Origin: Caldilineaceae bacterium SB0661_bin_34
GTDB lineage: Bacteria > Chloroflexota > Anaerolineae > Caldilineales > Caldilineaceae
Length of the DNA: 64,000 bases
Assembly (NCBI GenBank): GCA_009841145.1
Contig: VXMJ01000093.1
Span: forward strand, 29,257 to 93,256
Direction of reading: 5' to 3'
Each line of letters starts with the position of its first letter. Within the stretch, counting starts at the first letter, position 1. Below, piece after piece: positions 3,802 to 56,848 of the stretch. Under the pieces are notes generated by a model. The model was not told the origin of the DNA. It was given only the letters and a program-made list of their open reading frames with translations, and ran no database searches. The translations under genes and the position numbers were made by a program.

Positions 3802-3809
3802 CAGGTTTG

Positions 3810-6916: not shown

Positions 6917-7011
6917 CTTGTGGCTCCTTTCCAGGGGAGCAATGTGGCACATGGCTACTCGACGGGCTGACGACCGACTGCTGCGACCATGGTTGCTCAA
7001 GTCGCCCGGGG

Positions 7012-8173: not shown

Positions 8174-8248
8174 CGCCCGACGCGGGGCGCGGGTCGAAGA
8201 TGAAGGGCGGTTGCCGGCGACATCGGGCGCGGGCCGCGCTCACGCCTG

Positions 8249-8599: not shown

Positions 8600-8737
8600 C
8601 CTCGGTTCAATCTGCGCCGGCAGGCTGATGCCACCCCAATCCGCCCCATCGGCGCGCAAACCCGTCCACGTCGGTACGTACCGCCGGAGAGCGGCCTGCT
8701 GCTGCTCCCGTAGTTCCTGACTGGCCAAGGCCCCATT

Positions 8738-8757
8738 CCGCAAACGACCGTTTGCGG
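8738..8757. repeat. Palindrome CCGCAAACGACCGTTTGCGG (copy 1)
   Basis: Inverted repeat read directly; recurs at 9869. Confidence 0.8.
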
Positions 8758-8762
8758 GACGG

Positions 8763-9161: not shown

Positions 9162-9481
9162 GGGTTCAGCACCCGGTCAGGGTTCGACTCTGCTTCCCAC
9201 TCGACGTCGAGTGGTGTGATGATGTCGCCCATGAATCGAACCAAATGCTTGTCCCGGCCGAAGGGGGCGCGCAGCTTCGGAGCGTGAGGCATTAGCTTCG
9301 CGGCTGGTCGGCCATGTTTCGTGATCACGATCTCTCCGCCACTCTCTTGAATTTCATCGATCAGTTTCAGGCAATTGGCCCTGAATTTCGAGACCGGGAT
9401 CGTTTTGGTTGCACCTACGGTGCCGGGCACGTTTATCACTTGGATGCCTATCGTATGTTGTGCAATAAGGACATTGTACAT
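9158..9481 (-). CDS. Phd/YefM-family antitoxin
   Basis: TKTIPVSKFRANCLKLIDEIQESGGEIVITKHGRPAAKLMP; overlaps the PIN toxin. The true start is probably internal. Confidence 0.9.
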   Translation of the reverse strand: MYNVLIAQHTIGIQVINVPGTVGATKTIPVSKFRANCLKLIDEIQESGGEIVITKHGRPAAKLMPHAPKLRAPFGRDKHLVRFMGDIITPLDVEWEAESNPDRVLNP

Positions 9482-9516
9482 GCAGCGTACAATAATACAC
9501 GTACAAGCGAGTCCCC

Positions 9517-9750
9517 ATGTTGCATCCCCGCGTCCTGTTCCGGGCCCTGCTTCCAGTGCTGGCTGGCTGCATCATGTCTGCGCGCGACGAACCGTCGCCC
9601 GCAGAGGTCGAGACCGTGGTTGAGGAAGTTGCGGAACCGGCACAGGTGCCAACGTTTACGCCCACACCTGTGCCCATAGGACAGCGGCCAACCCCGGCAC
9701 CGAGCCCCCTACGGGCGGCTAGGCCTACGAGGGCAACCCGAAGTGATTAG
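9517..9750 (+). CDS. Short putative lipoprotein
   Basis: Lipobox-like LLPVLAGC followed by a PTFTPTPVP linker; truncated-looking. Confidence 0.45.
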   Translation: MLHPRVLFRALLPVLAGCIMSARDEPSPAEVETVVEEVAEPAQVPTFTPTPVPIGQRPTPAPSPLRAARPTRATRSD

Positions 9751-9868
9751 GCAGACAGCCAGGCCCAACCCCAACAAGCCATGTGTATCGGACCCGTCAC
9801 ACGGTTGTCAAGGTCTTGAGGTTGTACGAACCCGGAACAGGGTCGGCAGTCCAGTCGTGTTTGCCGGT

Positions 9869-9888
9869 CCGCAAACGGCCGTTTGCGG
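9869..9888. repeat. Palindrome CCGCAAACGGCCGTTTGCGG (copy 2, perfect)
   Basis: Perfect 20-bp palindrome; differs from copy 1 at one base. Confidence 0.8.
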
Positions 9889-9987
9889 GACGCAGGCTGC
9901 GAGTGCGGCTCCCCTACACTGGGGGACGGAACCGTCGGCCGCCGCCATGACACTCCGATCTTGAACCGACAACCGGGAACCTGCCTC

Positions 9988-11026
9988 ATGCGAATTTGCG
10001 CCTTTCGCGCCCGCGGTCCCGGATCAGGGTGGTGGACTGCCGGACGGGGTGGCCTGATCGTGCTCTGCGCCCTGTTGTTCGGTCTGGGCGCCTGCCGGGG
10101 GCCCCAACTAGGTCTGCATTTCGTGGATCGGAAGGTGCTGGAGGACCTCTATCGCTGGAATGGAGGTGTCCACTGGTACCGTCAGGAAAACTGGAAGCAG
10201 GGCGATCTTAATTGGGAAGGCGTGACCACCCACCAGTCAGGCCACGTCCAGGAGTTGCAGTTGTCCGCCAACGGGCTGCACGGGCCACTGCCCGGCCTGG
10301 ACCCGCCCCAGTGGCTGGACCTGGAGGTGCTGGACCTGTCCGGGAACCGATTGCAGGGGCCCTTCCCGCAGGCCCTGGCGTTGTTGCCCCGGCTGCGTGT
10401 CCTGGATCTGGGGTCCGGCCCTTGGGTGGGCTGCCTGCCAGCGGCCTGGCGGCACGGCGGGGTGGACGTGCGGAGTCCGGCTTTGCCTTTCTGTGGGGAC
10501 GCGGCGGATCGGGCCACGATGGCGGCGGTGATGGCAGCCACTCGCGACCGGGAGGGGTGGCAGGCATTGCATTGTGCCGTGGGAGAAGCTCTCGCGCTGT
10601 CATCCTGTTGGGGCGATCCGCGGACGCCCCTGTCCCTCTGGCGGGGGGTAACCACCGATCCGATGGGACGGGTCATGGGTCCGGACCTGAATTACAGACA
10701 CCCCCAGTTGACTGGGCCTATTCCGCCCGCCCTAGTCCAACTGGCCGCCCTGGAGTGGTTGGACTTGGGGTCCTATCAGTTGACTGGCCCGATCCCCCCC
10801 GGCAATGGGCCAGGCAGTTTCTCTGAGGTATCTGAATCTGTCGCACAATCAACTGGCGGGATCCATTCCCCCGGAACTCGGCCAACTCGCGAATCTGTGG
10901 GGGCTGAATCTGTCGCATAATCAATTGACGGGGTGCCTGCCCCGAGAGTGGCAAAACATATCAGGCCCCATTGTCTCTTTCGGTAACGCGCAGGGCCGGG
11001 ACGAACTTTCTTTCTGCCCGACTTGA
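9988..11026 (+). pseudogene. LRR lipoprotein, frame broken at a C7 tract (10794-10800)
   Basis: LEVLDLSGNRLQGPFPQAL...LEWLDLGSYQLTGPIPP in frame 1; LRYLNLSHNQLAGSIPPELGQLANLWGLNLSHNQLTGCLPREW in frame 2, joined at GATCCCCCCCGG. Confidence 0.75.
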
Positions 11027-11539
11027 GGCCCATCACCCCCATTCTCCTCCCGAGGCCCACTCCCGCCTAGCCCGTTGCCGCTAGCCACCACTGATACACA
11101 GTGCGGGAGTATCGGACAACCACTTGTTTGCCGGCTCTCTGCCAAGTCCAAGGCCTCCGACCAGACTGGCAGTGCCTACAGGCCGTGGTCCGCCTGGCCG
11201 GGGCCTGAGCCTTTCGGAGATCCGGTGTTTCCTGTGGCGCAGCGAGGTCTGGACGGTACCCAAACACATCTGCCGTTGGCAGACTGAGGCCATGGTGGGA
11301 GCCATCAATCCGTCACTCGTACAAGACATCGGATCCTTGCCGGTAATCCAACCCGCCGGTTTCCGAACCGGATAGGGTGAGCCGACCGCACCGCTACGGT
11401 GTCATGCATTCGAACGGTCTCGCCAATCCCGCCTTGGGGTTGGCATGCAGGCCCGGCATGAACCGGCTCCCCACCCCTGTCCATATCCGCGGTGTACCCG
11501 CCGCGTACCTTCAGGACAAACGCCTTGGTCCTCCTCTAT

Positions 11540-11880
11540 ACGGTACATCCTCTGAGGGGTAGAATGTCCGAGTTGCGCATGCCCTCCCGATGTCCCGGAG
11601 GCGATCCCCTGTTGACAGCTTGGTTCACACACCGCCTGCGTCGCCCCCGCACGGGCCAAGTGCCGCAGCAAGCGGCGAATTCCGGGTCGCTGTTTGCGAA
11701 GCGATGTACGGGACCTTCCGCCATGGACACATCCAACAGGGCATTTGACACATCGATACCCATGACCATTGGCAGACTGCATCGAAACCCACCGGATCGG
11801 AACTTGCCGGCCTGAACCCAGCAGCGGTCCAGCAGTTGTTGTAGCTGGCATGTCTTCGGATCCTCCTCGCCATGCACCAC
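11540..11880 (-). pseudogene. IS110-family transposase N-terminal remnant
   Basis: VMGIDVSNALLDVSMAEGPVHRFANSDPEFAA resembles the IS110 N-terminal 'GIDVSK..LDVA' motif; no full-length partner. Confidence 0.6.
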
Positions 11881-12053
11881 TGCCTAGCCCGACTGGATTG
11901 GAAGAACCACCACTAGTGGGAGGCCTGTGTGGTCACTGTTGCATGCAGGTTTGCAACGGAAGAATCGGGCTGCCCTGAATTTGGTGGTGGGGTGACAATG
12001 CATACGGCCCGGACGCAAGATGTTGAAAGGGAGTACAGCAGAGGAGACTGCCG

Positions 12054-13763
12054 ATGTGGTCCGTGAAGATCCTGATCCAGGCTCTGACCACATGTCTTTT
12101 CCTGCTCCTGGCAGCGGGATGTGTGGCCCGGGAGGCCCGGGCCTCCCAGTTTGAGCACCTGCCGGTCGGAGCCAAAGCCCGTCTGGGCCGGGGTACCGTT
12201 GAAGCCATGCAGTATGCGCCGAATGGCACGCGCCTGGCTGTTGGAGGCAGCGCAGGCCTCTGGTTGTATGACCAGGCCTACGAAGTCGAGTTCCTGCTCA
12301 CAGGTGAATCTCCGCCGACCATACTCCAGGGAAGAAGGAATGTCCGCAGCGTAGCCTTCAGTCCCGATAGCCAGACCCTGGCCAGTGTCAGCGCGGACCA
12401 CACAGAGCTTTGGGGCGACGGCGCCGTCCACCTGTGGGATTTGGCCACGGGCACTCTCCAACACACCCTGCAGGGCCATGGGTTGGATGATGTCTGGAGT
12501 GTGGCCTTCAGTCCCGACGGCCGGACCCTGGCCAGTGCCGGCGGCGACCGGACCATCCGCCTGTGGGACGTGGCCACGGCCACCCTCCGGCATTCCCTGG
12601 AAAGTCCGCATAGCATTTGGAGTGTGGCCTTCAGTCCCGACGGCCAGACCCTGGCCAGTGCCGGCGAGGACGGCACAATCCGCCTGTGGGATATGACCAC
12701 GGCCACCCTCCGGCACACCTTGCAGGGTCATACGGATCGGGTTCGCAGCGTGGCCTTCAATCCCGACGGCCACATCCTGGCCAGTGGCAGCGAGGACCAC
12801 ACCGTCCGCCTGTGGGACGTGGCCACGGCCACCCTCCGGCACACCTTGCAGGACCATACGGATCAGGTCCGCAGTGTGGCTTTCAGTCCCGACGGCCACA
12901 TCCTGGCCAGTGGCAGCGACGACCACACCGTCCGTCTGTGGGATGTGGCCACGGCCACCCTCCGGCACACCCTGCAGGCCCATGACGACTGGGTGGGCAT
13001 CGTGGCTTTCAGACCTGACGGCCATATCCTAGCCAGTGTCAGCGGAAACCGCATCATTCGCCTGTGGGGCATGACCACAGCCACCCTCCAACATACCCTG
13101 GAAGACCATACCTATCAGATCGTCAGTGTGGCCTTCAGTCCCGACGGCCAGACCTTGGCCAGTATCAGCTGGGACCGCACCATCCTGTTGTGGGACGTGG
13201 CTATGGCCACCCTCCGGCACACCCTGCAGGGTCATGGGTTGGAAGAGGTCCGCAGCGTGGCCTTCAGTCCCGACGGCCACATCCTGGCCAGTGGCAGCGA
13301 GGGCCGCACAATTCGCTTATGGGATATAACCACAGCCACCCTCCGGCACACCCTGCGGGGTTATGGGTTGGAAGAGGTCCGCAGTGTGGCCTTTAGTCCC
13401 GACGGCCGGACCCTGGCCAGTGGCAGCGACGACCACACCATCCGTCTGTGGGACACAGCCACGGGTACTTTCCAACACGCCCTGCAAGGCCATGGGGACT
13501 GGGGTGACTGGGGCTGGGTCCCCAGCGTGGCCTTCAGTCCCGACGGTCGGACCCTGGCTGGTGCCGGCGGCGACGGCACCGTCCGCCTGTGGGATGTGAG
13601 CACAGGTACCCTTCGGCATACCCTCCACGGGCATAGGATTGCGGCCTTCCATGTGGTATTCAGTCCCGATGGCCAGACTCTGGCCAGTGCCAGTTTGGAC
13701 GGCACAATCCTGTTGTGGGATATGGACGCGGTGGAGATTGCCGCAGTTAACCCAGCGCGGTGA
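12054..13763 (+). CDS. WD40-repeat lipoprotein
   Basis: Lipobox LLLAAGC; about a dozen repeats of VxSVAFSPDGxxLASGSxDxTIRLWDxxTATLRHTLQGH. Confidence 0.95.
   Translation: MWSVKILIQALTTCLFLLLAAGCVAREARASQFEHLPVGAKARLGRGTVEAMQYAPNGTRLAVGGSAGLWLYDQAYEVEFLLTGESPPTILQGRRNVRSVAFSPDSQTLASVSADHTELWGDGAVHLWDLATGTLQHTLQGHGLDDVWSVAFSPDGRTLASAGGDRTIRLWDVATATLRHSLESPHSIWSVAFSPDGQTLASAGEDGTIRLWDMTTATLRHTLQGHTDRVRSVAFNPDGHILASGSEDHTVRLWDVATATLRHTLQDHTDQVRSVAFSPDGHILASGSDDHTVRLWDVATATLRHTLQAHDDWVGIVAFRPDGHILASVSGNRIIRLWGMTTATLQHTLEDHTYQIVSVAFSPDGQTLASISWDRTILLWDVAMATLRHTLQGHGLEEVRSVAFSPDGHILASGSEGRTIRLWDITTATLRHTLRGYGLEEVRSVAFSPDGRTLASGSDDHTIRLWDTATGTFQHALQGHGDWGDWGWVPSVAFSPDGRTLAGAGGDGTVRLWDVSTGTLRHTLHGHRIAAFHVVFSPDGQTLASASLDGTILLWDMDAVEIAAVNPAR
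12330..13730 (+). repeat. Near-identical ~126-nt tandem repeats encoding WD40 blades
   Basis: Recurrent GTGGCCTTCAGTCCCGACGGCCACATCCTGGCCAGTGGCAGCGA...CTGTGGGACGTGGCCACGGCCACCCTCCGGCACACC. Confidence 0.9.
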
Positions 13764-14046
13764 CAGCAAAAAAGGCAGGGCCGTGGCCAAGGTGTTTGAT
13801 GCATATTGGGTAGCGACCATGGTCCCGGACGACATCCGATGGTGGTGTCCAACAACTGTGCCAGATGTCACCCGGTGCCATCCAGCCAGTGCCGAACTCC
13901 AAGGAATACTTTGCTCTTCGTCTCCAATGTCCACAGGTCTAAAAATGTGGTTGCCCCGGCTGTAGTGGCAGGGCAATTGCAAGATTGTGTTGCGGGAGCG
14001 CTTGTCTAGGACCGGGGCTCCTTGTTGACCCCATGGAGGCCCCGTC

Positions 14047-14500
14047 ATGACTCCTTGCCTGGCCGCGTCCCTGCGGAGCTGTCTGGAGGATATGTCGGAT
14101 TCTCGCAGTGCCCATGCCCGCCGTCACCCGTTCACATCCATTCTCTTCCTGGCCCTGACCGCCGTCATTGGCGGTGCCGACACCTGGGTGGAGGTGGAGG
14201 AGTTCGGTCGGGACCACCGCGCCTGGTTTGAGCGGTGGCTGTGTCTGCCGCACGGCATCTCCTCCCACGACACCTTTGGCCGGGTCTTCGCCCTCCCCGA
14301 CCCGGAGCAACTGGAAGCGGGGTTTGCCCGGTGGGTGCAGGCCCGGCACGACCAAATGACGGACTAGGTGGTGGCTCTGGATGGCAAGTACGGTGCCGCC
14401 TCCGCCGTCAAGGGCGCCAGGGTGATGGCTGCCAACAGTGGGGCCGCCGGCAACGGCCCGGGACCCAAGATTTTGACAAATGCACGGGCATCAACAGCTG
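14047..14500 (+). pseudogene. ISAs1-family transposase remnant (N-terminal half, internal stop and frameshift)
   Basis: HPFTSILFLALTAVIGGADTWVEVEEFGRDHRAWFERWLCLPHGISSHDTFGRVFALPDPEQLEAGFARWVQ, stop, then VVALDGKYGAAS. Confidence 0.75.
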
Positions 14501-14728
14501 CCGGACCTGGTCGTGTACGCGTGGGAGCCGACCGCACCGCAACCGGGTGGCATGGCAGCTCCGACCAGGGCGGGTTCCGCTGTCCCGCAAACGCTCGTTT
14601 ATGCAGCGGTCGCGCGACCCAGGCCATCCGCGCCGCGGCCCCTCGGCCGCACCTACCGCAAAATCCCGTCCCGAAACCAGAAACACTTCCCTGTCCCGAA
14701 AGCAGCTACGCAACCTGCCTGGATCCCA

Positions 14729-16018
14729 TCACATTCGGAGCGTAGTGGACCCGAAACCGGATTCAAGCGCATTGGCCAGCTGATACAGATCACGGGAATG
14801 CATCCCCAAACCTTGATCGCGCCAAATCCGGCAAACTATGCCGTCAATGTTCCTCTCCGAATCGGGCGGCGCATCCCGGCCAGCGCGATAGAAGAGCAGT
14901 CGACTCCCGCCATACATCCATGATGTCGAAAAGCCCGGCGGCCGCGACTGTCTCCAACGCCGGAACTCCGGCAACTCTTCGTGATGGGCGTCCATCCAGG
15001 CCTCCTGCCCAACCTGTACAACGACCAGTCCCAGTGAGCCGGGCACAAGACTCCAGTCCCCATGATTGTTCTTGAGTGTTGCTCGTATGCCTGGTGTCAC
15101 CTGTCCTCCCAGACGCTGTAGCCGCGCTGCGCCATCAAAGAACCGGAAGGTCTCGATCAGACTCTCGACCACATACGGAAAAAAGATGGGATAGGGCGTC
15201 TGGCTCTTGAGGAGGTTTTCTCCATGCAGTCCGGTCGACTGCCCAAATTTCGTTGTGGGTTCCGCGTAGTACCTTGTGTCCATGTACACCTTGCTTGCGC
15301 CGCCGTACGAGTCGTCATAGATAGTCAGTACATCAGCGACGGTCGCTATTGGCTCACCCACCAGCTCCAATCGCGCATTCGGTTCGCAACGAGCGAACCT
15401 GCTGTCCGCTTCCTGCCGATGTGCATCGTCAAGGGTCTCGTACAGACACGTCAACGAGTGATGCTTGCCAGGATCCTTCATAGACCGCATCAAGTCTGCC
15501 TTCATCACAAGTTCGGCGGCCATGACCAACAGGTGCAAGGCAGGCATGATTTCCACAACCGACCTCGGAGGCCGTCCACTGGGCATCACCGCTCCATACG
15601 CTGCAAGGTAACGTTCCGCGAAACGCGCCATCAGTTCTGGGCTACCATGCTGATCCACTACGGTGCCATCCTGGATCGTCCCCTCCTGGCTTGGCAAGAC
15701 TTCCCTCGTATCAGTCAGGCACACAGCCGGATACTGCACAGTAGCGCACTGTCCGCGGCTGTCCGTCATGTTGATCATCGCTAGCATACGCTCCACCCCA
15801 GGTTGGTGGCCATCGCCAGACTGTTGCTGGCCTGACGCTCTGCTAGCTTGACCAAAGTGGTACGAGAACTCGGTTTGGATTTCCCGGCCACATTTCGCAC
15901 AGGTGTACGGCTGTTCTACTTGCATCGGCCTGCCGAGTGTGGCCAAGTTGTGGCAATAGATCCGAACGGCTCCCGGCAGGAATTCTTGTTGACCACATTG
16001 ATGACACTGTCCTTCCAT
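14729..16018 (-). CDS. Uncharacterised protein with N-terminal zinc ribbon-like CxxC motifs and a possible HEPN-like segment
   Basis: 429 aa; CHQCGQQ...YTCAKCGREIQTEFSYHFGQ; MPALHLLVMAAELVMKADLMRSMKDPGKHHSLTCLYETLDDAHRQ. Confidence 0.65.
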   Translation of the reverse strand: MEGQCHQCGQQEFLPGAVRIYCHNLATLGRPMQVEQPYTCAKCGREIQTEFSYHFGQASRASGQQQSGDGHQPGVERMLAMINMTDSRGQCATVQYPAVCLTDTREVLPSQEGTIQDGTVVDQHGSPELMARFAERYLAAYGAVMPSGRPPRSVVEIMPALHLLVMAAELVMKADLMRSMKDPGKHHSLTCLYETLDDAHRQEADSRFARCEPNARLELVGEPIATVADVLTIYDDSYGGASKVYMDTRYYAEPTTKFGQSTGLHGENLLKSQTPYPIFFPYVVESLIETFRFFDGAARLQRLGGQVTPGIRATLKNNHGDWSLVPGSLGLVVVQVGQEAWMDAHHEELPEFRRWRQSRPPGFSTSWMYGGSRLLFYRAGRDAPPDSERNIDGIVCRIWRDQGLGMHSRDLYQLANALESGFGSTTLRM

Positions 16019-16753
16019 AAGATCTCCTCGGTACCCAGGGGATTTTGCCGCCCATGGTGAACGGCAACGAACATCACATGCATCCGACGAACCGGCTTGG
16101 TTTGCCCTGATTTCGAGCCAATTCCTCGGCCGGGCTCCAAACAGAGGCGCTGTGCTTCGATTCCTGGACGATTTTAGGGCTCCGAGGTACTACAACACCC
16201 CTTGGGAGCCAGGGGAATCTCTCGAATCAGGGCAGCTTGGGCAGGTCGGCCATCCCAACAACACGCAATTGACCCTTGGGAGCGGCCGCCTTCTCCGCCG
16301 CCCTTCGAATGAACGCGGTGGCATGACTGAGCTTACGAACGGGGATGATGGCTGCTACGTCTGTGGACATGACCCGTGCAGGTGCAGCCCTGAACCCGAC
16401 GATGACGAACCGCAATGCGAGCTGTGCGACGGACGGGATGATGTGAAGCAACGGCAGCTTCAGATCATGCCTCATGGTTCGGTGTTGCCCTACTGTTTGC
16501 CTCTCTGCCGGGTTGAAGTTCCAGAGCGTGGCACCCTGCGGGGCCAAGCATGAACATTCCCGTTCCGTCCATTCGGCCGCGGTTCGGACCTGGGGCAAAA
16601 GGCAGCGTTTTTGGAACTCAGGTCGTTACGCACCGATCCGGCGCGCCCGGCCGACGGCCGCCACCGTTCCAAATAAGCATCCGAAAACAACGTGCCGTAC
16701 GGAGCCGCCAAACCGTTTCCGGTACAATGCTGCAACCACACGGAGGAACCTGC

Positions 16754-17368
16754 ATGCACGAATTGACCCAAGGGCTGGCCGACGACCCGAGTCAGGACAG
16801 CCGTACGCGTGCGCGCCTTGATCAGTCAATGGTTGGCGCGCAGCGGCTTGACATCTGCACCAGCTACATAAGCAGAGCGGATTTGGAGCAGTTGTGCGAC
16901 TGGCTGGACCGAATGGACAACAAAGCCAGGGTGCGAGTGTTGATCGGCATGGCGGCCGATGGTTGGGAGGATTGGGGCAAAGACGAAATCACCATCAGGG
17001 CCGAACCTTTCTTTCTGGCCCAACACTTCAGACCCGACCAAAAATATGATCAAGACGCGATTCCGTTATTGGAGCGGCTGAAACGGCAGGAGGCCGACGG
17101 GCGCCTGATCGTGAAGTTGCGCCACCCGCGCAGTGCCCTGCACGCCACACTCTATGTTTGGACCGATGCGGCCGGTCGGGAGGAGGCATGGCACGCCAAC
17201 ATGCCGCAGTTGGCCAGCACCCGCGACTTCGTGGCCTGGTTCGACGCGCGCTGGCGGGAACAGGATTCGGTCGGTGGTCCGAAACTGGTGGAAGAAGCCC
17301 GACAGGTCGTAGTGGCCAATCGGCCGGACCAGTATGGGAAAATCCGCGCGGCACGCGCCGGACGATGA
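16754..17368 (+). CDS. PLD-like domain protein (possibly truncated)
   Basis: SMVGAQRLDICTSYISRADLEQLCDWLDRM...VRVLIGMA...IVKLRHPRSALHATLYVWTDAAG. PLD-like fold suggested, but the HKD motif is not canonical. Confidence 0.5.
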   Translation: MHELTQGLADDPSQDSRTRARLDQSMVGAQRLDICTSYISRADLEQLCDWLDRMDNKARVRVLIGMAADGWEDWGKDEITIRAEPFFLAQHFRPDQKYDQDAIPLLERLKRQEADGRLIVKLRHPRSALHATLYVWTDAAGREEAWHANMPQLASTRDFVAWFDARWREQDSVGGPKLVEEARQVVVANRPDQYGKIRAARAGR

Positions 17369-17401
17369 CAGCCGCAGGCAACCTGCACCGGAGTTGAAGG
17401 C

Positions 17402-17986
17402 ATGAAATTCGGTTACGCGCGGGTATCGACCCACGATCAGCACCACGACCTGCAGCTCGACGCGCTGCGGGCCGCGGGCTGCGAACGCATCTTCACCGAC
17501 AACTGCTCCGGCGCGACCGCCTGCGCGGACCGGCCGCAGCTCCAACAGATGCGCGCCCAGCTCCGGCCCGGCGACGTGATCGTGATCTGGAAGCTCGACC
17601 GCCTGGGCCGCAACCTGCGCGACCTGCTCGTGTTCGTCAGCGACCTCGAGGGCGACGGCATCGAGTTCATATCGCTGACCGAGCAGATGGACACGACCAC
17701 CATGATGGGGCGGCTGGTGTTCCAGATCTTCGGCGCGCTGGCCGAATACGAGCGCAGCCTGATCTCCGAACGAACGAAGGCCGGCCTCGCATCCGCCCGG
17801 GCGCGGGGCCGCAAGGGCGGACGCGGCCGCAAGTTCGGCGACGCGCAGGTCCGGCGTGCGGCCGAACTGATGCGCGCCGGCCAGCTGACGGTGGACGAAA
17901 TCTGCGCCACGATGGGGATCGGCCGCACGACCCTCTACCGCTACATCACGCCCGAGGGCGACATCCGCCCGGAGCCGCGGCCGTGA
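17402..17986 (+). CDS. Serine recombinase/resolvase (Hin/Tn3-like)
   Basis: MKFGYARVSTHDQHHDLQLDALRAAGCERIFTD...VIWKLDRLGRNLRDLL...GRLVFQIFGALAEYERSLISERTKAGL, C-terminal HTH. Confidence 0.95.
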   Translation: MKFGYARVSTHDQHHDLQLDALRAAGCERIFTDNCSGATACADRPQLQQMRAQLRPGDVIVIWKLDRLGRNLRDLLVFVSDLEGDGIEFISLTEQMDTTTMMGRLVFQIFGALAEYERSLISERTKAGLASARARGRKGGRGRKFGDAQVRRAAELMRAGQLTVDEICATMGIGRTTLYRYITPEGDIRPEPRP

Positions 17987-18936
17987 GGATCGAGTTCGAG
18001 CAAGGGGTGCCGTCCAAGGCCGATCTGGCCGACCTGCTCGCCCAGTGGCGCGCGGTCACAATCCCCGCAAAAATGAAATACGCGTGGATGCTCGCAGTGC
18101 GCGTGCGTTGGAGCACCTACGCGGCCGCCACGCGCGACCTCGAGCAGCCCTTTCAAGACCTCAACCACGATGAGGTGGCCGATCTGCTCGACAAGGGCCA
18201 TGCGCCCGCCCGCCGGTGCGAAGCCGCGCAGCTCGACGACGTGCGCGCCTACGACCAGGCCATGGTGCAGATGCTCCAGCTGTGGGACGACGAGGAACCG
18301 CTGACTATCGACCATCTGCACGCCGCGCACCGAACCATGATGGACCTGCGGTTCGACAACGGGATCGAGAACGACGACTGGCCGCTCGGTGCGTTCAAAA
18401 CGAAACCCACGGCTGCGGGGGCCGCGTACACAATGGCGGAGTGCGCGCACCCCGCCGTCGTGCCCGCCCTGATGGACGAGATCGTGTGCCGCGCCAATGT
18501 GCGCGTCGCCGCGATGCTCCGCAGTCCGGGCCAATTCGATCCATCCTGGGCGATCGCAGCGCTGCACTATGAATTGATTGCGATCCAGCCGTACGCCGAC
18601 GGCAATCATCGGATTGCAATCTGGCTCGACAACTGGATGTGCATGGCGGCCGGCTACCCGCCGCTCGTGATCCATGAGAACCGGTACGACGAGTATTTGC
18701 GCGCCCTGTCGGCCATGAAATCCTTTGCCTTGCCGGACGACCCGCAGGTTGACCTGCCGACCGTCCGGCAGATGGCGATCAGCGCCATCGACATCCAACC
18801 CCTGCGCGACTTCTATGCGCTCCGCCTGGCCGAAAGCCTGGCGTTCTCCACGGCGATTGCCGGGGGCCATGCGGTGGCGTTGATCGATGGCGGGCACGCC
18901 GCAGAGCTCGAACACGACCTCGGAGGACCACCATGA
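17983..18936 (+). CDS. Fic-fold protein with degenerate active-site motif
   Basis: LHYELIAIQPYADGNHRIAIWLDNWM in place of HPFxxGNGRxxR; GTGA overlap with the resolvase. Confidence 0.8.
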   Translation: MRIEFEQGVPSKADLADLLAQWRAVTIPAKMKYAWMLAVRVRWSTYAAATRDLEQPFQDLNHDEVADLLDKGHAPARRCEAAQLDDVRAYDQAMVQMLQLWDDEEPLTIDHLHAAHRTMMDLRFDNGIENDDWPLGAFKTKPTAAGAAYTMAECAHPAVVPALMDEIVCRANVRVAAMLRSPGQFDPSWAIAALHYELIAIQPYADGNHRIAIWLDNWMCMAAGYPPLVIHENRYDEYLRALSAMKSFALPDDPQVDLPTVRQMAISAIDIQPLRDFYALRLAESLAFSTAIAGGHAVALIDGGHAAELEHDLGGPP

Positions 18937-42114: not shown

Positions 42115-43717
42115 GGGAATTACATACCTGACTAAGCACCGGATGCGTACTACAATAAGCAGAAGCCGCGGGTGTTGAGATCACCGCGCGGCTCCCAGAC
42201 AGTCAAGGTTCAATGACAACCTTACCTGCCAAACCCCATTCTACAACCGAGAACCGTGCGGAGCGGTACCGTATCCGGTTCGACAAGCGCGCCCATGCGG
42301 CCAAGTGCGCCCAGATCGCGGGTGCGTGCAGGCTGGTGTGGAACATTCTGCTGGCCGATTGTGAGCGGCGGTATCGATTGAGTCGTGAGTTGGGGATCGA
42401 TGACAATGGCGGACATCCCATCGACAAGTCCGTCTCGTTCTTCACGCTGGGCAAGCGGTTCACGGATTTGCGAAGCAGATCCGACGCGGCGTGGGTTCGG
42501 GATTTCATGGATTCACCGCAGGGAAAGCGGTACCGGGACATGGATCTGTCCTGGCTGCGGGACATGCCGTATGCACCGCTCCGCTACACTGCGAAGTACC
42601 TGGCCGACGCGTACACGCGCTTCTTCAAGGTGTGGGCAGAAGCCAAGTCGGAAGGGACTCCCCTCGGCCGGCGCCAGTCGGACGGCAAGCCCAAGGGGTT
42701 TCCGAAGTACAGGAAGAAGTTCGACCGCGACGACGGGTTCGCCATTCCCGGCGACGTGCGCATGGACGGAGACCGGATGCACATCCCGAAGGTGGGGTGG
42801 GTGCGCCTGGAAGGGAGCGGGTTGTACCGGGGCTGCAAGCCGAAGCAGGTGCGCATCCGGAAGGAAGGCACAGAGGATCGCCCCAAGTGGTACGCCTACG
42901 TGTTCTACGAAGTGCCGCCGGACCATTTGAAGCAACCTGCCTGGACTGGCGCGATTGGCTTGGACCGGAACGTAGGGCAGGCCACCGACAGCGACGGCGA
43001 GGTGTACGAGACACCCGACGACCCGCAGCTGGAGGGGAAGATCAAGCGCAAGGAACGGAAGAAGGCCAAGTCGCTGGCGCGTTCCAAGGCCAACGGCAAG
43101 CCCGTGTCCAACCGCGGTCGGCGCATAGGTGGACAGTTGAAGAAACTGAAACGCAAGCAGAAGCGTCGCCGGGAGAACGCCGCCCACCAGCACAGCCGCA
43201 AGATGGCCGACACGGCGCACACCGTGGTCATTGAGGACCTGGACATCAAGGACATGACCAAGAGCGCCAAGGGTACGGTGGAAGAGCCCGGCAAGAATGT
43301 AAAGCAGAAGGCCGGACTCAACCGCGAGATCCTGAAATCCAACTGGGGCCGCACGGAGCGGATGCTGGACTACAAGGCGGGGCAGGTACTGAAGGTTCCA
43401 CCTGCCTACACGTCGCAGACCTGTGCGGCGTGCGGACACGTCGGCAAGGAGAATCGCAAGACACAGGCACACTTCCGATGCACGGCGTGCGGACACACTG
43501 CGAACGCAGATCGCAATGCCGCTCAAAACATCCTGGAGCAGGGCCTGGCCCTGCTCCCGAAGGCCCGCGGGAATGGGGCTTCTGCACGGCGAGAGGCGCT
43601 CGATCCCTGTTTGTTGCCTGGAGCAACCGGCAAATCGACTTCTATGACCCGTGAACAAGGCATGCTGGCTACACTGGAGCCTCCGGGTTCCGGTGCTTAG
43701 TCAAGTATGTAATTCCC
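42115..43717 (+). mobile_element. TnpB-only IS605/IS1341-like element bounded by 29-bp inverted repeats
   Basis: Left GGGAATTACATACCTGACTAAGCACCGGA (42115-42143); right TCCGGTGCTTAGTCAAGTATGTAATTCCC (43689-43717), reverse complement identical except one base. Confidence 0.75.
42213..43700 (+). CDS. tnpB: TnpB RNA-guided nuclease (IS200/IS605 OrfB family), apparently intact
   Basis: RuvC-like motifs GAIGLDRNVGQ, HTVVIEDLDIKDM, NADRNAAQNIL; zinc finger CAACGHVGKENRKTQAHFRCTACGH. Confidence 0.95.
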   Translation: MTTLPAKPHSTTENRAERYRIRFDKRAHAAKCAQIAGACRLVWNILLADCERRYRLSRELGIDDNGGHPIDKSVSFFTLGKRFTDLRSRSDAAWVRDFMDSPQGKRYRDMDLSWLRDMPYAPLRYTAKYLADAYTRFFKVWAEAKSEGTPLGRRQSDGKPKGFPKYRKKFDRDDGFAIPGDVRMDGDRMHIPKVGWVRLEGSGLYRGCKPKQVRIRKEGTEDRPKWYAYVFYEVPPDHLKQPAWTGAIGLDRNVGQATDSDGEVYETPDDPQLEGKIKRKERKKAKSLARSKANGKPVSNRGRRIGGQLKKLKRKQKRRRENAAHQHSRKMADTAHTVVIEDLDIKDMTKSAKGTVEEPGKNVKQKAGLNREILKSNWGRTERMLDYKAGQVLKVPPAYTSQTCAACGHVGKENRKTQAHFRCTACGHTANADRNAAQNILEQGLALLPKARGNGASARREALDPCLLPGATGKSTSMTREQGMLATLEPPGSGA

Positions 43718-48667: not shown

Positions 48668-50157
48668 CTCGACTTTGTACAACTTGATGTCGGATTCGGG
48701 GAGGCAAGGCAGGCTGGCACAATGGACCAAATAACCACAAAAGGTTCATCATGCCCAGCCTGCCACCCGCGATTGTACCGCTGCTGTCCCCCTTCGCGTC
48801 GCTGTTCGATGCCCGCACCTGGCGCAAGGTGCAGATCCTGCTGACGGGGGTCATTCTGGCCCCCGGTCGGCGCACGGTGTCCACGGCCCTGTATGTGCTG
48901 GGCCTCCACGAGCGGGGCGACTTCGCCCTGTTCCACCATGTGCTCAGCCGCGCCGCCTGGTCGTCCCTGGCGGTCAGCCGGGTGCTGTTGGAGCAACTGG
49001 TCCGGCAGCTGGTGCCGACGGGACCGCTCCTGTTCGCCATTGACGAGACCCTGGAACGGCGCTGGGGCGAGAGGATCGAGGCCCTGGGGGTGTACCGGGA
49101 CCCGGTGCGCTCGTCCCACGGCCACTTCGTCAAGGCCAAGGGATTGCGCTGGGTCAGCCTGATGCTGCTGGTCGAGGTCCCCTGGGCCAACCGGGTGTGG
49201 GCCCTGCCCTTCCTGACCGTGCTGGCCCCGTCCGCGCGCTACCACGAGGCCCGCGGTCGCCGCCACAAGACGATCACGGACTGGGCCCGCCAGATGCTGT
49301 GCCTGCTGCGCCGCTGGCTGCCCGACCGGGAGCTGGTGGTGGTCGGGGACCGCACCTACGCCACCCTGAAGCTGCTGGCCGCCTGCCAGCGCATGACCCC
49401 GTCCGTCACCTTCCTGACCCGCCTGCGCCTGGATGCCGTCCTCCATGATCCACCTCCGCCCCGCAGGCCGGGCCAGCTGGGACGGCCCCGGGTCGTGGGC
49501 GCCCGTCAGCCCTCCCTGCAGGCGCGCCTGGCCGACCCGGCCACGGTCTGGACCCCCCTGACCCAGCGCTGGCCCGACGGCACCAAAAGGCACCTCCAGG
49601 CGGCCACCGGCACCGCCCTCTGGTATCACCCGGGCGAGCCCACCGTCGCCCTGCGCTGGCTGCTCCTGCGCGACCCGTCCGGACAGCGCGAACCCCAGGC
49701 CCTGCTCTGCACCGACCCCGACTGGAGCCCCAAGGCCCTCCTCGCCACCTGCCTGCAGCGCTGGCAGGTGGAGGTTGCCTTCCAGGAGGTCCGCACCCAC
49801 CTGGGGGTCGAAACCCAGCGCCCGTGGTCGGCGGCCGCCATCGCCCGCACCACCCCGATCCTGCTGGGCCTCTTCAGCTGGCTCATCCTGGTCGCACACC
49901 GCCTGCGCCGGGAGCAGGCCCTCCGTCCCCGTCGGGCCGCCTGGTATGCCAAGACCGTCCCCACCTTCGCCGATGTCCTGGCCTCCGTCCGCCACCTCCT
50001 CTGGATGCAGGTCCTGCCTTTTTCCCTGTCCCCGGTCACCCCCGACATCCGAAAACTCCCCCAGCCGCCGCCCGCACCGCTCCTGGCCGCCCTCTGCTAC
50101 TCGGCCTGACACACCCCCAACCTCTCAGCACCTATCCGGACTTTGTACAAAGTCGAG
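48668..50157 (+). mobile_element. IS701-like insertion sequence with exact 5-bp target duplication
   Basis: Ends CTCGACTTTGTACAA... and ...TTGTACAAAGTCGAG; TTCAG at 48663-48667 and again at 50158-50162. Confidence 0.88.
48751..50109 (+). CDS. IS701-like (DDE_5 type) transposase
   Basis: FDARTWRKVQILLTGVILAPGRRTVSTALYVLGL...LFAIDETLERRWG...VVVGDRTYATLKLLAAC...RWQVEVAFQEVRTHLGVETQRPWS. Confidence 0.85.
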   Translation: MPSLPPAIVPLLSPFASLFDARTWRKVQILLTGVILAPGRRTVSTALYVLGLHERGDFALFHHVLSRAAWSSLAVSRVLLEQLVRQLVPTGPLLFAIDETLERRWGERIEALGVYRDPVRSSHGHFVKAKGLRWVSLMLLVEVPWANRVWALPFLTVLAPSARYHEARGRRHKTITDWARQMLCLLRRWLPDRELVVVGDRTYATLKLLAACQRMTPSVTFLTRLRLDAVLHDPPPPRRPGQLGRPRVVGARQPSLQARLADPATVWTPLTQRWPDGTKRHLQAATGTALWYHPGEPTVALRWLLLRDPSGQREPQALLCTDPDWSPKALLATCLQRWQVEVAFQEVRTHLGVETQRPWSAAAIARTTPILLGLFSWLILVAHRLRREQALRPRRAAWYAKTVPTFADVLASVRHLLWMQVLPFSLSPVTPDIRKLPQPPPAPLLAALCYSA

Positions 50158-50333: not shown

Positions 50334-51626
50334 ATGAATCAACTTCCGACTTTTCGCCGCCCCCTGGTGTCTGAGCTGATTGACCTTCTCACCGAGGAAG
50401 GTCCCATGCGCCTCGTCGCAGTCACCGGTCCCCGGCAGACGGGCAAGACTATCTTGGTTCGCCAGGCGTTCGAAGAACTTGAAAGGGAAGGCACCTCGTG
50501 CTGGTACATCGCTGTAGACGATCCGTCTTCAGACGCGTCCTCCCTTGGCCATCTTGTGGACTCCGGGGTACTGATTCCCGGACGCCCCCGAGGAGCGGAA
50601 TGGCTTGTTGCGACATGGGAACGGGCGCGCGCTGTTGCCGAGCGTTCTCCTCGGGGCATGGTGATGGCACTGGATGAGATCCAGGGAATCCCGCAGTGGT
50701 CGAATGTCGTCAAGGGCCTCTGGGATCGGGATCGACGTACAGGGTGTCCGCTGCGGGTGGTGATCATGGGGTCCGCTCCATGGGCGATGCTGACCGGAAT
50801 GCATGAGAGCCTGGCCGGCAGATTCGATTCCTTCCCGGTTACACACTGGTCATTGGGAGAGATGCAGCGTGCATTCGGAGTGACTCTAGACGAGTATCTT
50901 TTCTTTGGAGGCTACCCGGGTGCTGCAAGTCACATGCGGGACATCACCCGGTGGAGGGAATACATCCGACACACCATCGTTGCGCCGGCGGTCGGCCGGG
51001 ACATCCTGTCCCTGACGCGCGTCGACAAGCCGTCGCTGATGCGTGCCCTGATGGATCTGGCTCCGGAGTATTCGGGCCAGGTCATCTCCTACATAAAGTT
51101 GCAGGGCCACCTCAAGGATGCCGGGAACACCACGACGCTGGCGCGCTACCTGGATCTGCTTTCGGATGCCGGGTTGGTTGCCGGGTTGCAGAAGCACAGC
51201 GCGAAGCTTCATCTCGCGAGGCGGTCGAGCCCAAAGCTCAATGTACTGAACACCGCCATCATGACGGCCACGTATCCCCATTCCTTGGCACGGGGCCGAG
51301 ACGACGGAGCATTCTGGGGACGGCTCTGCGAAAGTGCAGTGGGGGCACATCTTCACAACACCATTGGCACCGATGGGACCATGCGTCTTCGTTATTGGCG
51401 GGATGGCACCGATGAGGTGGATTTTGTCCTCGCGTCTGGCCGGGATCTGGTTGCGATCGAGGTCAAGAGCGGTCGTCGGCGGAAGCGAGCCGCGGGTCTG
51501 CCCGCCTTCAAAGCCAGCTTTCCCGGCGCGAAAGGGTTCGTGGTCGGGACCGACGGGATCCTTTTCAACGAATTCCTGTCCGAGACGGCCGGGTTCTGGT
51601 TTGAGAATGCTCACCATGACAGTTGA
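50334..51626 (+). CDS. AAA_14/DUF4143-type ATPase
   Basis: LVAVTGPRQTGKTILVRQAFEEL (Walker A), GMVMALDEIQGIPQWSNVVKGLWD (Walker B), C-terminal DGTDEVDFVLASGRDLVAIEVKSGRRRK. Confidence 0.93.
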   Translation: MNQLPTFRRPLVSELIDLLTEEGPMRLVAVTGPRQTGKTILVRQAFEELEREGTSCWYIAVDDPSSDASSLGHLVDSGVLIPGRPRGAEWLVATWERARAVAERSPRGMVMALDEIQGIPQWSNVVKGLWDRDRRTGCPLRVVIMGSAPWAMLTGMHESLAGRFDSFPVTHWSLGEMQRAFGVTLDEYLFFGGYPGAASHMRDITRWREYIRHTIVAPAVGRDILSLTRVDKPSLMRALMDLAPEYSGQVISYIKLQGHLKDAGNTTTLARYLDLLSDAGLVAGLQKHSAKLHLARRSSPKLNVLNTAIMTATYPHSLARGRDDGAFWGRLCESAVGAHLHNTIGTDGTMRLRYWRDGTDEVDFVLASGRDLVAIEVKSGRRRKRAAGLPAFKASFPGAKGFVVGTDGILFNEFLSETAGFWFENAHHDS

Positions 51627-54600
51627 AAGAACGGTCTCGGAGTGGCGAGAAGGCAGGTGGCAGTCGGAGAATCGAAGGTTGTCGGATTTCCGGTCCGCAC
51701 ACGCGTATGTGTTGCTCGGTGAGCCGGGATCGGGCAAGACCACTGCGTTTAAGGCTGAGGAGGAAGAAGGGGACGGAAACACAAAGCTTATTCCCGCCCG
51801 TCGCTTCATTGGCCGGAACGTCGACAGTCACCCGGAGTGGAAGGACAAGACGCTGTTGGTGGATGGACTGGACGAACTGCGCGCCTCGGGGGGCAATCCC
51901 CACGAGCCTTTGGATGCCATTCTGTGCCGAATAGAGCAGCTCGGCCAGCCGCGCTTCAGACTCTCCTGCCGCGAGGATTCCTGGTTGGGCCGAAACGACT
52001 TTGGCGAACTGGCTTCGGTCACGGATGGCAAGGATCTTCTTTTGCTGTGGCTCGATCCCTTGGGCCACGAGGAGGCTCATGCGCTCTTGGCAGACAAGGG
52101 GGTTGAGCATCCCGAAGAGGTTGTGCGGAGAGCGGAGGAAGATGGGTTGCAGGTCTTCATCGAGAACCCCCTTTTGCTTGAGACACTGGCCAACGCGGTG
52201 GCTTCCGGCTCCTGGCCGAATGGCCGGCTCGACACGTTCGAGCGGGCGTGCGGAGAGTTGGCGGAGGAATTGAACGAACGGCATCTCGACGCTCGGGATG
52301 GCGGTTTGTTCTCGACCTCGGAGATCGTTCTCGCGGCAGGCCGTCTGTGCGCGCTCTTGCTGCTTTCCGGAAAGAGCGGTTGGTCCCGACGTGGTCGGGG
52401 AGATGAAGGCAGTCCGGCACTGAGGGAAGCCGGAGACCGGCAGGATCTCCTCAAGGTTGCCCTGGACACCAAACTGTTCGAAGGGAGTGACGAGACCTAC
52501 AGAAGTCCACGCCACCGCGTTATCGGGGAGTTCCTCGCCGCAAAATACCTGGATCACGCAATCAGGGTGAAACACCTAGCCCCCGGACGCGTTCTGGCAT
52601 GGATGCAGGGAATCGATGGTGTGGTGATGCCCGACCTGCGCGGCGTGTCGGTGTGGCTGGCCGCTATGAATGGCCAAGTACGCGGCCACCTCATCGAATC
52701 CGATCCGATCGGCTTGGCTTTCCACGGGGATGCCGGACGCTTCAGCCGCTCGGAAACTCAACTCCTGTTGGACGGTCTTGAGGCGAAGTTTCCGCATTGG
52801 TGGGAGTGGCCGTCACGGGCCTCTCTCGCCGCGCTTGTTGCCGGCCCCGCGCGCGCAATCCTGTGGGGCATGCTGCAGGATACGGATCGTTCGAATGTCA
52901 GACAGGAAGTGGTGGATTTGCTCCTGCGGGGCATGGCCGTGTCCCCTTGGGGTGGTCCGCGAGGCGCGGTGGGCGGCTCGGTAAGACACGCGGAGGACGC
53001 TCGAAAGGTCTTGGCGGCCGTTGTGCGCGACCCCACTTGGCGTTCAGAGACGAGGTGCCGGGCCCTCGCTGCACTCATCCGTGTGGGCAGGAACGAGGCC
53101 GACTGCATTTCCACGCTGCGGGGGCTCCTGGACGATCTGGCGGCGGACAAAGTACTCGAGGACGAACGGGGCGACTTGCAGGGTGAGCTTCTCACTCACC
53201 TGTATCCAGGGCATCTAGCCGTCGAGCACATTTGGGACTACCTGCCGTCCGGTGCTGTGTTCGATGGTAAGGCCCGGAAGTTCTGGACGCAGCACCTTGT
53301 GTGCGAATCACTACCGGGGAATGTGAGCTCCCTGCTCGACACACTCGTGGCTAGAGCCGAGGAACTGAATGTTCGCCTCGCCCAGGCCAATTTGGATTCG
53401 CTGGTCATGAAACTGCTTGCCCGGGGGCTGGAACTCTTCGGTGAGGAGAGGGAGGTTGCCAAACTGTACGAGTGGTTCGAACTAGTGGATGTGGACCACG
53501 AGCCCCTTAGGCTGGTACCGGCCCATTGCGAACGGGTTGGCTACCGATATCACCGTGAGGAGGAGAAGCAGATTTACCGCTGGCTCCGTGCGCAACCTTG
53601 TATCCAACGGGCGCTGGTTTTGGAAGGGCTGAAGCGCAATGCCACAGGGCCGCGAACTACAGCTCTTGAAATGACCATCGGCGCGAAGTTCCTGGGTAAC
53701 ACGATGACGGCCGAGTTTCGCAAGTGGTGTCTGGACCAAGGAGTTCAACTGGCAACAACGGCTCCGCGTCTGGCTGAGGAACTGGCGTACTGGGCTGTGA
53801 CACGGAACTGCGAAGAGTGGAACCCCGTGCTGGGAGACGACGAGGTAGCTGCTGCGGTTCGGGACATTCCGCTGTTGCGGGAGTGGAACGAGAAGCGTCT
53901 CGCCGCGGAAGAACATTATTCCGAGATGGCAGCACAGCAGCGTGAGTCTCCAGCCTTCGTCGAAATCCGCGGACGAATAGAGGCCTATGTTGCCTCGGTT
54001 CGCGAACATATGGATGCCATCCAGACGGGTCAGGGGCCGCCTGGCATGCTTTACGAACTCGGCCGGGTGTACGTGGTTGGCCTGGAAGCGGGCGGCCCCG
54101 TCCAGGCACGCGAGGACCTGACACTCCATCTCGGCTCGGATCGCGAGCTGGTTGAAGCGGTCATTCACGGCTTCCACCACCTTGTGGACCGCCGCGATCT
54201 CCCAGATCTCAACGGTATCGTGCGACTCTATGGGAACGGCAAGATGTCAGTTTTCGCATCCCCCTTCCTGGCCGGCCTCACCGAGGACGAAGTAGCTGGC
54301 ACAGACCCCCTTCAACGTCTCAACGACGAGGGGCTTGGTCGCGCTTTGGGGTTCTATCTCCTTTCCCGGCTGCCGACCAAGTGTCGTCCGAACCCGAGAG
54401 TCTTCACTCGTGAGGAGGACTGCCGCCCGTCCTGGTACCGCCAAGCCCTCCGTGACCACCCACAGGCCGTTGCGGATGCCTTCGTGGCCGTGCACCGAGT
54501 TCGTGTCCGCGCGAAGGAACCACCGGACCAGCATCTGTATGACTTGGCCAGGACCGACGAATACGCGGAGGTGGCGCGCTTGGCGGTGCCCCGGATGTTC

Positions 54601-55854
54601 GCACCATTCCCGAGTCGTTGCAGCGCGGTCCAATTGGAGACCCTACGCAAGGTCCTGTGGGCCGCGCTGCGCCATATGTGTTCCGGCGAGCTGCGCGAAC
54701 TGGTTTGGAGGCGATTGGCCCGAAAAGGAATGGATACTGGTCAGCGCGCTCAGTGGCTGGCCACAGGCGCGCTGACCACTCCTGAGGAGCTGCTTCCGCA
54801 GCTGGTAGGTTTCCTGTCGGACGAGGGCGAGACAAGATCGCGCCATTGGGAGCAAAGGGTGCACCACCTAGTGAATTTCTTGGTGCAGGATACGAAGTCC
54901 CTTCCCAATCAGGAATGGCCAACCACCCATTTGGGCGCGCTGATTGGAGCCGTTTGCAGATGGGTTCGTCCGTCATCGGATTATTGGCAAGACTCATCCG
55001 ACCGGTTCAAGGCCGTAAGGATCGCTGAAATCGACATGAAGGCGCCACCACTGGTGCAGCACTGGATCGACACGCTTGCAAAGCGGGTGGACGAACAAGC
55101 CATTGCTGCACTCGACAACTTGGCGGAAGACCCAAAGCTTGAGAGTTGGCGCGGGCATCTTGTACGCGAGCGCGACACGCAAGCGGAACGGCTTCGCAAG
55201 GCCAAATACCATGTGCCAACCCTGAGCGAAATAAGGGAGGCGATGGAGGGCGGGCCCCCGGCCAGTGCCGCCGATCTCGCCGCGTTGGTCACCGAGGAAC
55301 TGAGCCAGCTCGCAGACAGAATCCGCACCGGCAACACAGGTGATTGGCGGCAATACTGGCACACCGACCCCGATGATCCCCAAGGCAGGAAGGTCATCCG
55401 GCCCAAACCGGAAAAGCTCTGCCGGGATCATCTCCTCTCGGGTCTCCGACCTTGCCTATTCCCTTACAAAGTTGATGCCGAGCCGGAAGCCCACCACGCG
55501 GAAGATGCCCGGTCCGATATCCTAACGGTCTGCCGTCCCCACGCGGTACCTGTGGAGATCAAGAAAACCGACAGCAGGGATCTATGGAGTGCTTGCAGGG
55601 ATCAACTGATTGCCAAATACGTTCGTGATCCGAGGTCGGGCGGGTACGGGATCTACTTGGTCCTATGGTTCGGGCCTGAACACCTTAAGCGCTCGCCCCC
55701 CGTCGGTACTCGCCCTGACTCGCCCGATCAGCTTCGACAAATGATCACGGAGATGCTGGAACCAGCCCAACGCAGAACGATTGCCGTTGTGGTGGTGGAT
55801 GTCTCAGATCCGCATGATCGCCGCCCTGCGGTGCATCGCCCTAAACATCCTTGA
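51616..55854 (+). CDS. Giant NACHT/STAND-like NTPase with C-terminal PD-(D/E)xK-type nuclease motif (~1412 aa)
   Basis: AYVLLGEPGSGKTTAF (Walker A), KTLLVDGLDELRASGG (Walker B), PRFRLSCREDSWLG, PLLLETLANAV; C-term ARSDILTVCRPHAVPVEIKKTDSRDLWSACRDQLIAKY (D..ExK..QL..KY). Start overlaps the DUF4143 gene by 11 nt. Confidence 0.85.
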   Translation: MTVERTVSEWREGRWQSENRRLSDFRSAHAYVLLGEPGSGKTTAFKAEEEEGDGNTKLIPARRFIGRNVDSHPEWKDKTLLVDGLDELRASGGNPHEPLDAILCRIEQLGQPRFRLSCREDSWLGRNDFGELASVTDGKDLLLLWLDPLGHEEAHALLADKGVEHPEEVVRRAEEDGLQVFIENPLLLETLANAVASGSWPNGRLDTFERACGELAEELNERHLDARDGGLFSTSEIVLAAGRLCALLLLSGKSGWSRRGRGDEGSPALREAGDRQDLLKVALDTKLFEGSDETYRSPRHRVIGEFLAAKYLDHAIRVKHLAPGRVLAWMQGIDGVVMPDLRGVSVWLAAMNGQVRGHLIESDPIGLAFHGDAGRFSRSETQLLLDGLEAKFPHWWEWPSRASLAALVAGPARAILWGMLQDTDRSNVRQEVVDLLLRGMAVSPWGGPRGAVGGSVRHAEDARKVLAAVVRDPTWRSETRCRALAALIRVGRNEADCISTLRGLLDDLAADKVLEDERGDLQGELLTHLYPGHLAVEHIWDYLPSGAVFDGKARKFWTQHLVCESLPGNVSSLLDTLVARAEELNVRLAQANLDSLVMKLLARGLELFGEEREVAKLYEWFELVDVDHEPLRLVPAHCERVGYRYHREEEKQIYRWLRAQPCIQRALVLEGLKRNATGPRTTALEMTIGAKFLGNTMTAEFRKWCLDQGVQLATTAPRLAEELAYWAVTRNCEEWNPVLGDDEVAAAVRDIPLLREWNEKRLAAEEHYSEMAAQQRESPAFVEIRGRIEAYVASVREHMDAIQTGQGPPGMLYELGRVYVVGLEAGGPVQAREDLTLHLGSDRELVEAVIHGFHHLVDRRDLPDLNGIVRLYGNGKMSVFASPFLAGLTEDEVAGTDPLQRLNDEGLGRALGFYLLSRLPTKCRPNPRVFTREEDCRPSWYRQALRDHPQAVADAFVAVHRVRVRAKEPPDQHLYDLARTDEYAEVARLAVPRMFAPFPSRCSAVQLETLRKVLWAALRHMCSGELRELVWRRLARKGMDTGQRAQWLATGALTTPEELLPQLVGFLSDEGETRSRHWEQRVHHLVNFLVQDTKSLPNQEWPTTHLGALIGAVCRWVRPSSDYWQDSSDRFKAVRIAEIDMKAPPLVQHWIDTLAKRVDEQAIAALDNLAEDPKLESWRGHLVRERDTQAERLRKAKYHVPTLSEIREAMEGGPPASAADLAALVTEELSQLADRIRTGNTGDWRQYWHTDPDDPQGRKVIRPKPEKLCRDHLLSGLRPCLFPYKVDAEPEAHHAEDARSDILTVCRPHAVPVEIKKTDSRDLWSACRDQLIAKYVRDPRSGGYGIYLVLWFGPEHLKRSPPVGTRPDSPDQLRQMITEMLEPAQRRTIAVVVVDVSDPHDRRPAVHRPKHP

Positions 55855-56002: not shown

Positions 56003-56308
56003 TCAGGCAGGCTCATACCGCTGCACGGTGATTTCGCTGGCACGCGCGCGCATTTGGGATGTGTCGTACCAAGCCTGCATCCGGAGCAGCATGTCCATGC
56101 TCACGTCGAAGGCCTTCTCGATACGCAGGGCCATCTCCGCCGACAATCCCGCATTGCCATTAAGCAGGGCGGAAAGCGTCGCCCGGCGGACTCCGAGTAT
56201 CTCGGCAGCCTTCGTGACAGTGAGGCCCAGTTCCTCGATGATCTCCGTGCGAATGAAGTCACCCGGATGAGCAGGGGTCATGTTCACATTAATGCCGTTG
56301 GCAGCCAT
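56003..56308 (-). CDS. higA: HigA-family antitoxin (XRE HTH)
   Basis: MTPAHPGDFIRTEIIEELGLTVTKAAEILGVRRATLSALLNGNAGLSAEMALRIEKAFDVSMDMLLRMQAWYD. Confidence 0.95.
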   Translation of the reverse strand: MAANGINVNMTPAHPGDFIRTEIIEELGLTVTKAAEILGVRRATLSALLNGNAGLSAEMALRIEKAFDVSMDMLLRMQAWYDTSQMRARASEITVQRYEPA

Positions 56309-56598
56309 CAGTGGTAATCCTCCAAGTTCAAACGGTCGATATAGCCATCCGCTTCCATGAACGTAATCCGCCAGTTGCCTGAGACGGAGACGCTCCATGT
56401 CCCTTGGCGGCTCCCTGAAAGTTGGTGAAGTCGCCAACCCCGAGGCGCATCGGATGCGAAACGATCAATGTCCTCGGCCAGGATGAGCACGGTCAAGATC
56501 TTGCGCACACGGGAGATCAGTTCCGGTCTCACAAACCGGGGATTGTTGTCCTCAAGCAGCAAGCGCAACCCTCGGTGGCGTACCGTACGAATGATCAT
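56308..56598 (-). CDS. higB: HigB/RelE-family toxin
   Basis: HRGLRLLLEDNNPRFVRPELISRVRKILTVLILAEDIDRF...WRLHQLSGSRQGTWSVSVSGNWRITFM; TGATG overlap with higA. Confidence 0.95.
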   Translation of the reverse strand: MIIRTVRHRGLRLLLEDNNPRFVRPELISRVRKILTVLILAEDIDRFASDAPRGWRLHQLSGSRQGTWSVSVSGNWRITFMEADGYIDRLNLEDYH

Positions 56599-56848
56599 AC
56601 GGGGTAGTGTACGGTAATACCGTTCAGCTTGCAAGCCCCTTGGTTACGCAAGACACCTGAACTAGACTTCACCCCCTTCCAGCGGCGTTCGGTGCAGCCA
56701 GGCAGTCGGTCGGACCACGAGCAAAGCGCCGGTTCCGAACTTGCGCTGCAATCATCATGGCCTCAACTTGCGCAACCGGTACATGGGCAACCTGGGCCAG
56801 CTGACCATGCGGGACAATAGTGTCGCAACCACAACGGAGGTGTGCCGC

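Follow-up and report, generated by a model that had tools for sequence, protein, structure and literature searches.

An EruA-like NACHT NTPase gene overlapping an upstream DUF4143 ATPase gene in Caldilineaceae: a probable two-gene virus-defence unit

The stretch of Caldilineaceae contig VXMJ01000093.1 analysed here (64,000 nucleotides; hereafter the window) carries two overlapping plus-strand genes that probably constitute a two-gene virus-defence unit. With moderate confidence, we read the pair as a bacterial NLR of the EruA type, from a lineage carrying a PDC-S01 (DUF4143 ATPase-nuclease) subunit. The first gene (50334-51626; ATG at 50334, stop codon at 51624-51626) encodes a 430-aa DUF4143/AAA_14 ATPase of the PADLOC family PDC-S01, and the second (51616-55854; ATG at 51616) encodes a 1412-aa EruA-like NACHT (STAND) NTPase matching NCBIfam model NF058535. 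An earlier note on this DNA had described the second gene as starting inside the end of the first, and both open reading frames, their coordinates and the overlap are as it reported. The overlap spans 11 bases of the plus strand (51616-51626), and the start position is retained in relatives, the equivalent of position 51616 being ATG or GTG in three genomes of the same genus. More distant Chloroflexota relatives (L047, L048, L049, L101 and L102) show an ATGA overlap of the pair, and in a relative on a viral contig (L092) no gap separates the DUF4143 stop codon from the EruA-like start codon. The 11-base overlap suggests that the two genes are translationally coupled.

An NCBIfam profile search matched the large protein to NF058535, "NACHT domain-containing antiphage protein EruA" (744 bits, E = 4.4e-223), over its full length (residues 18-1397 against model positions 13-1318). 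Because this score is below the curated equivalog cut-off of 1000 bits, the protein is filed as EruA-like and not as EruA; the large protein of L092, from the same lineage, scores 1032 bits and is over the cut-off. The large protein has in common with EruA an N-terminal NACHT domain, a C-terminal PD-(D/E)xK domain and identical invariant residues, but most EruA relatives examined are without an upstream coupled DUF4143 gene, which the window pair has. The earlier note's proposal of a new system is therefore not upheld: a full-length match to a named antiphage family means that receptors of this kind are known already, and the C-terminal nuclease is general in that family. The protein looks new by eye because no model for it was found in PADLOC 2023, where no Avs model matched either, and because its Pfam matches were marginal, Pfam NACHT itself not being reached. 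A PDB sequence search with the large protein gave no match, and the E. coli genomes contained neither a near match to the window gene nor a distant match to its Pantoea relative. HyoA (NF058534) resembles the protein in the C-terminal region (residues 935-1361), and relatives resemble it in the NACHT part as well, but with only 111 bits against a cut-off of 1200 bits it is clearly a separate family. The origin of the names EruA and HyoA was not found in the literature searched, and an E. coli SlyA-family regulator bearing the same name is unrelated.

The NACHT NTPase and the helical domain following it occupy residues 1-560 (51616-53295, plus strand), with Walker A at residues 35-42, Walker B at 83-87 and R119. 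The motifs GEPGSGKT (Walker A), VDGLDE (Walker B) and RFRLSCRED are present, and residues G35, G38, G40, K41, D83, D86, E87, R119 and W123 are invariant in 16 aligned proteins. An AlphaFold2 model of residues 1-560 (pLDDT 83.5) matched NLRC4 (4kxf, E = 5.2e-8) and Avs4 (8dgf, E = 2.7e-5), as well as NLRP3 and NAIP5, by Foldseek. With a Walker A motif, a NACHT-type Walker B motif (DGLDE) and a predicted NLR-like fold, the large protein is a NACHT/STAND NTPase related to animal NLR proteins; the same class had been assigned in the earlier note. This core is common to the bNACHT and Avs proteins, NLRs and Avs4 being among the best PDB folds. In bNACHT proteins the effector is N-terminal and the sensor C-terminal (PMC12169576), whereas the NTPase of the large protein starts at about residue 30, with no N-terminal effector, and the nuclease is C-terminal. 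The layout is thus the reverse of the bNACHT plan: NACHT first, nuclease last. Between the two lies a poorly conserved region (residues 561-1139; 53296-55032, plus strand) with few invariant columns in the alignment of relatives, presumed by elimination to be a helical sensor.

The PD-(D/E)xK nuclease domain comprises residues 1140-1412 (55033-55854, plus strand), and a D-x12-E-x-K...Q....Y arrangement is present in it. Residues E1291, D1301, E1314, K1316, Q1330 and Y1335 are invariant in 17-18 sequences and also in the 16-protein alignment, and the catalytic residues are kept in relatives down to about 20-30% identity. In the AlphaFold2 model of residues 1140-1405 (pLDDT 86.3), helices and strands follow one another as in PD-(D/E)xK enzymes, with the catalytic D and E-x-K placed on the core sheet. 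Its best PDB match is Can1 (6sce; E = 7.1e-3, probability 0.94, low TM-score), and nearly all of its top matches are PD-(D/E)xK proteins (Can1, Cdn1, Can2, SfsA, PspGI and other restriction enzymes), with modest scores. Model topology and invariant catalytic residues together bear out the RecB/PD-(D/E)xK-type nuclease that had been proposed from the letters. Since these residues are invariant in relatives, the nuclease is a trait of the EruA-like family and is not peculiar to the window locus. DNA would be the likely substrate of the predicted nuclease.

The DUF4143 protein matched Pfam DUF4143 (3.4e-23) and AAA_14 (5.5e-19), and nearly its whole length (residues 7-421) aligned with PADLOC model PDLC04791 (PDC-S01; 1.5e-137). 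AAA motifs and an EVDFVL...AIEVKSG core are present, in keeping with the earlier description of an ATPase with a C-terminal nuclease-like core, and an NCBIfam search detected weak YraN-like nuclease similarity at the C-terminus. By sequence, the protein is a member of PDC-S01, an unvalidated PADLOC candidate family. PDC-S01, an ATPase fused to PD-(D/E)xK, is very common, reportedly ranking fourth among prokaryotic defence families, with validation of such candidates mostly pending (PMC12988326). It is listed as a single-gene candidate, whereas the window member is half of an NLR operon.

A DUF4143 gene lies immediately upstream of an EruA-like gene, overlapping or abutting it, in 11 loci: the window, three genomes of the same genus, six loci of Chloroflexota family f76 and the viral contig L092. 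Several of these hardly differ (both proteins are identical between L047 and L103, and almost identical in L102), which leaves three independent groups instead of 11; between these groups the large proteins are just 28-35% identical. The conserved DUF4143 partner proposed in the earlier note is supported. In a tree of 30 EruA-like proteins, the 11 linked ones fall inside one clade of 12 (support 96/96), the twelfth member being the long-branched L084, which is without a DUF4143 gene. The EruA-linked DUF4143 proteins likewise make up a single clade, separate from stand-alone relatives (95/91; 96% of bootstrap trees). They group as their large proteins do, and the pair shares its descent. In the host family, the DUF4143 gene is found in 4 of 46 genomes, the same four that carry the EruA-like gene (the EruA-like search covered part of the family). 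It is the conserved DUF4143 partner that looks new at the window locus.

Outside this clade, 13 plasmid loci and other viral loci showed no upstream DUF4143 gene. The partner, called obligate in the earlier note, can be so within one lineage only: EruA relatives on proteobacterial plasmids occur without it, and because many EruA relatives, some above the NF058535 cut-off, have no upstream copy, the EruA family as a whole does not need it. When the neighbours of EruA relatives were scanned for a DUF4143 "EruB", just one was found, in Paracoccus, and no NCBIfam partner model matched. There, on a plasmid (L038 5899-11129), an EruA scoring 1321 bits, above the cut-off, has a DUF4143 gene of a distant type about 100 bp downstream, possibly an independent association of the two.

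Several relatives are found in defence or mobile contexts. A type I R-M system adjoins the L092 pair, and an Avs2/PDC-M54A-like protein adjoins L048. The flanking neighbours of the L101 pair (248-18923) are a type IIG R-M enzyme and another NACHT protein, 1712 aa long, for which there was no good PADLOC match. SIR2, TIR, AbiE and Ppl occur near plasmid EruA relatives. In L084 (2921-14976), the EruA-like gene is cargo in a P2-like prophage, between late-control and replication genes (named by inspection of translations and not by family search).

If the pair is an EruA-type NLR with a PDC-S01 subunit, the two proteins would be co-translated and form a complex, and the middle region of the large protein, possibly together with the partner, would detect a phage product. 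The NACHT NTPase would then switch to an ATP-bound state and oligomerise, bringing together the C-terminal PD-(D/E)xK domains, which would cut DNA and stop the infection, probably with loss of the cell itself. Most simply, the DUF4143 protein would be a second ATP-dependent nuclease or a licensing subunit. Counted for this reading are the EruA match, both folds, the linkage, the two clades, the distribution in the host family, the defence contexts of relatives and dN/dS; counted against it are the score under the cut-off, the lack of a defence island in the window genome, the EruA relatives without an upstream DUF4143 gene, an in-frame TAG in L048, and the presence of L084 in the clade without DUF4143. 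A stronger form, offered tentatively as a real possibility, is that in an NLR lineage of inverted layout a PDC-S01 ATPase-nuclease has become an obligate subunit, so that the immune complex would contain two nucleases and two ATPases. If true, the pair would offer a way into the mechanism of PDC-S01, which is among the commonest candidate defence genes. A PDC-S01 member locked to a recognisable immune receptor provides a concrete hypothesis and an operon that can be tested. The lineage also adds NLR-like proteins with the nuclease at the end opposite to the usual bNACHT plan.

Another explanation is that the EruA-like protein is by itself a full defence, and that an independent PDC-S01 gene for defence or maintenance, the DUF4143 gene, became fixed alongside it and shares only its transcript. 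EruA relatives do stand alone on plasmids, and DUF4143 relatives of the partner's type are mostly stand-alone, including in metabolic contexts (Thermus, Bacteroides). However, the two genes still overlap or abut in 11 loci whose large proteins have diverged to 28% identity, and the joint grouping of the linked DUF4143 proteins, as one clade, with their large proteins also speaks against independent genes; we regard this explanation as rather unlikely.

At L048 11372-12505 (G318), an in-frame TAG is located in the N-terminal part of the DUF4143 gene and the EruA-like gene is open; the same genome carries a second pair, L049, at a contig end. In coupled pairs the antitoxin gene often comes first, as the DUF4143 gene does here, and the DUF4143 protein could accordingly be viewed as a negative regulator or antitoxin-like guard that keeps the nuclease receptor inactive. 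A passive inhibitor would not need the Walker motifs and ExK core that the DUF4143 protein retains. Moreover, because the DUF4143 gene of L048 is interrupted and other relatives of the large protein have no DUF4143 gene, the large protein is not generally toxic when unguarded, and a guard function seems quite improbable.

Both genes are under purifying selection, and the receptor evolves faster, as indicated by dN/dS values of 0.35-0.43 for the large gene and 0.16-0.23 for DUF4143 (0.10-0.12 for a neighbouring catabolic gene). A receptor that evolves fast under purifying selection would be expected to show this pattern. Compared with L002 5207-9442, the window large gene is a mosaic (dS 0.18-0.41 in codons 1-600 and 0-0.13 beyond them); barring an artefact of assembly, this points to recent recombination.

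The surroundings of the window pair had been taken for a typical defence island, but the Pfam matches of the neighbours identify a cluster for transport and sugar-acid catabolism that the pair interrupts. Among its 10 neighbours, there were no PADLOC matches except for a TnpB-like gene at 42213. A housekeeping or regulatory function serving this cluster would fit the identical chromosomal place, between catabolic genes, that the pair holds in four genomes of the genus, but it is very hard to credit and was rejected on distribution and context: the pair is absent from the rest of the 46 family genomes examined (with the EruA-like search covering part of the family), homologues have unrelated surroundings, in several cases defence genes or mobile DNA, the EruA family is curated as antiphage, and evolution is fast.

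Two further neighbours, neither part of the system, had been noted before and are both present. Upstream, an IS701-family element of 1490 bp (48668-50157, plus strand; transposase 48751-50109, NF049999, 3.9e-94) is bounded by TTCAG direct repeats. It is a recent local insertion, missing from the same site in three relatives (an empty site in L002, and absent in L063 and L064). Other matches to the element in the genome are for the most part partial, at about 75-84% identity, which leaves the assembly without a near-identical source copy. Located 177 bp upstream of the operon, the element could affect expression of the pair. Downstream, Pfam matches identify a HigBA module (56003-56634) on the minus strand, with a HigB-like toxin (56308-56634; PF05015, 5.8e-9) and an Xre-family antitoxin (56003-56437; PF01381, 6.2e-11). 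The antitoxin reading frame is also found in L002, and the matched stretch breaks off in L063 and L064. The TnpB/OrfB gene (42213-43700; IS605, Cas12f-like) matched PADLOC Cas12u4/Cas12f models with up to 197 bits.
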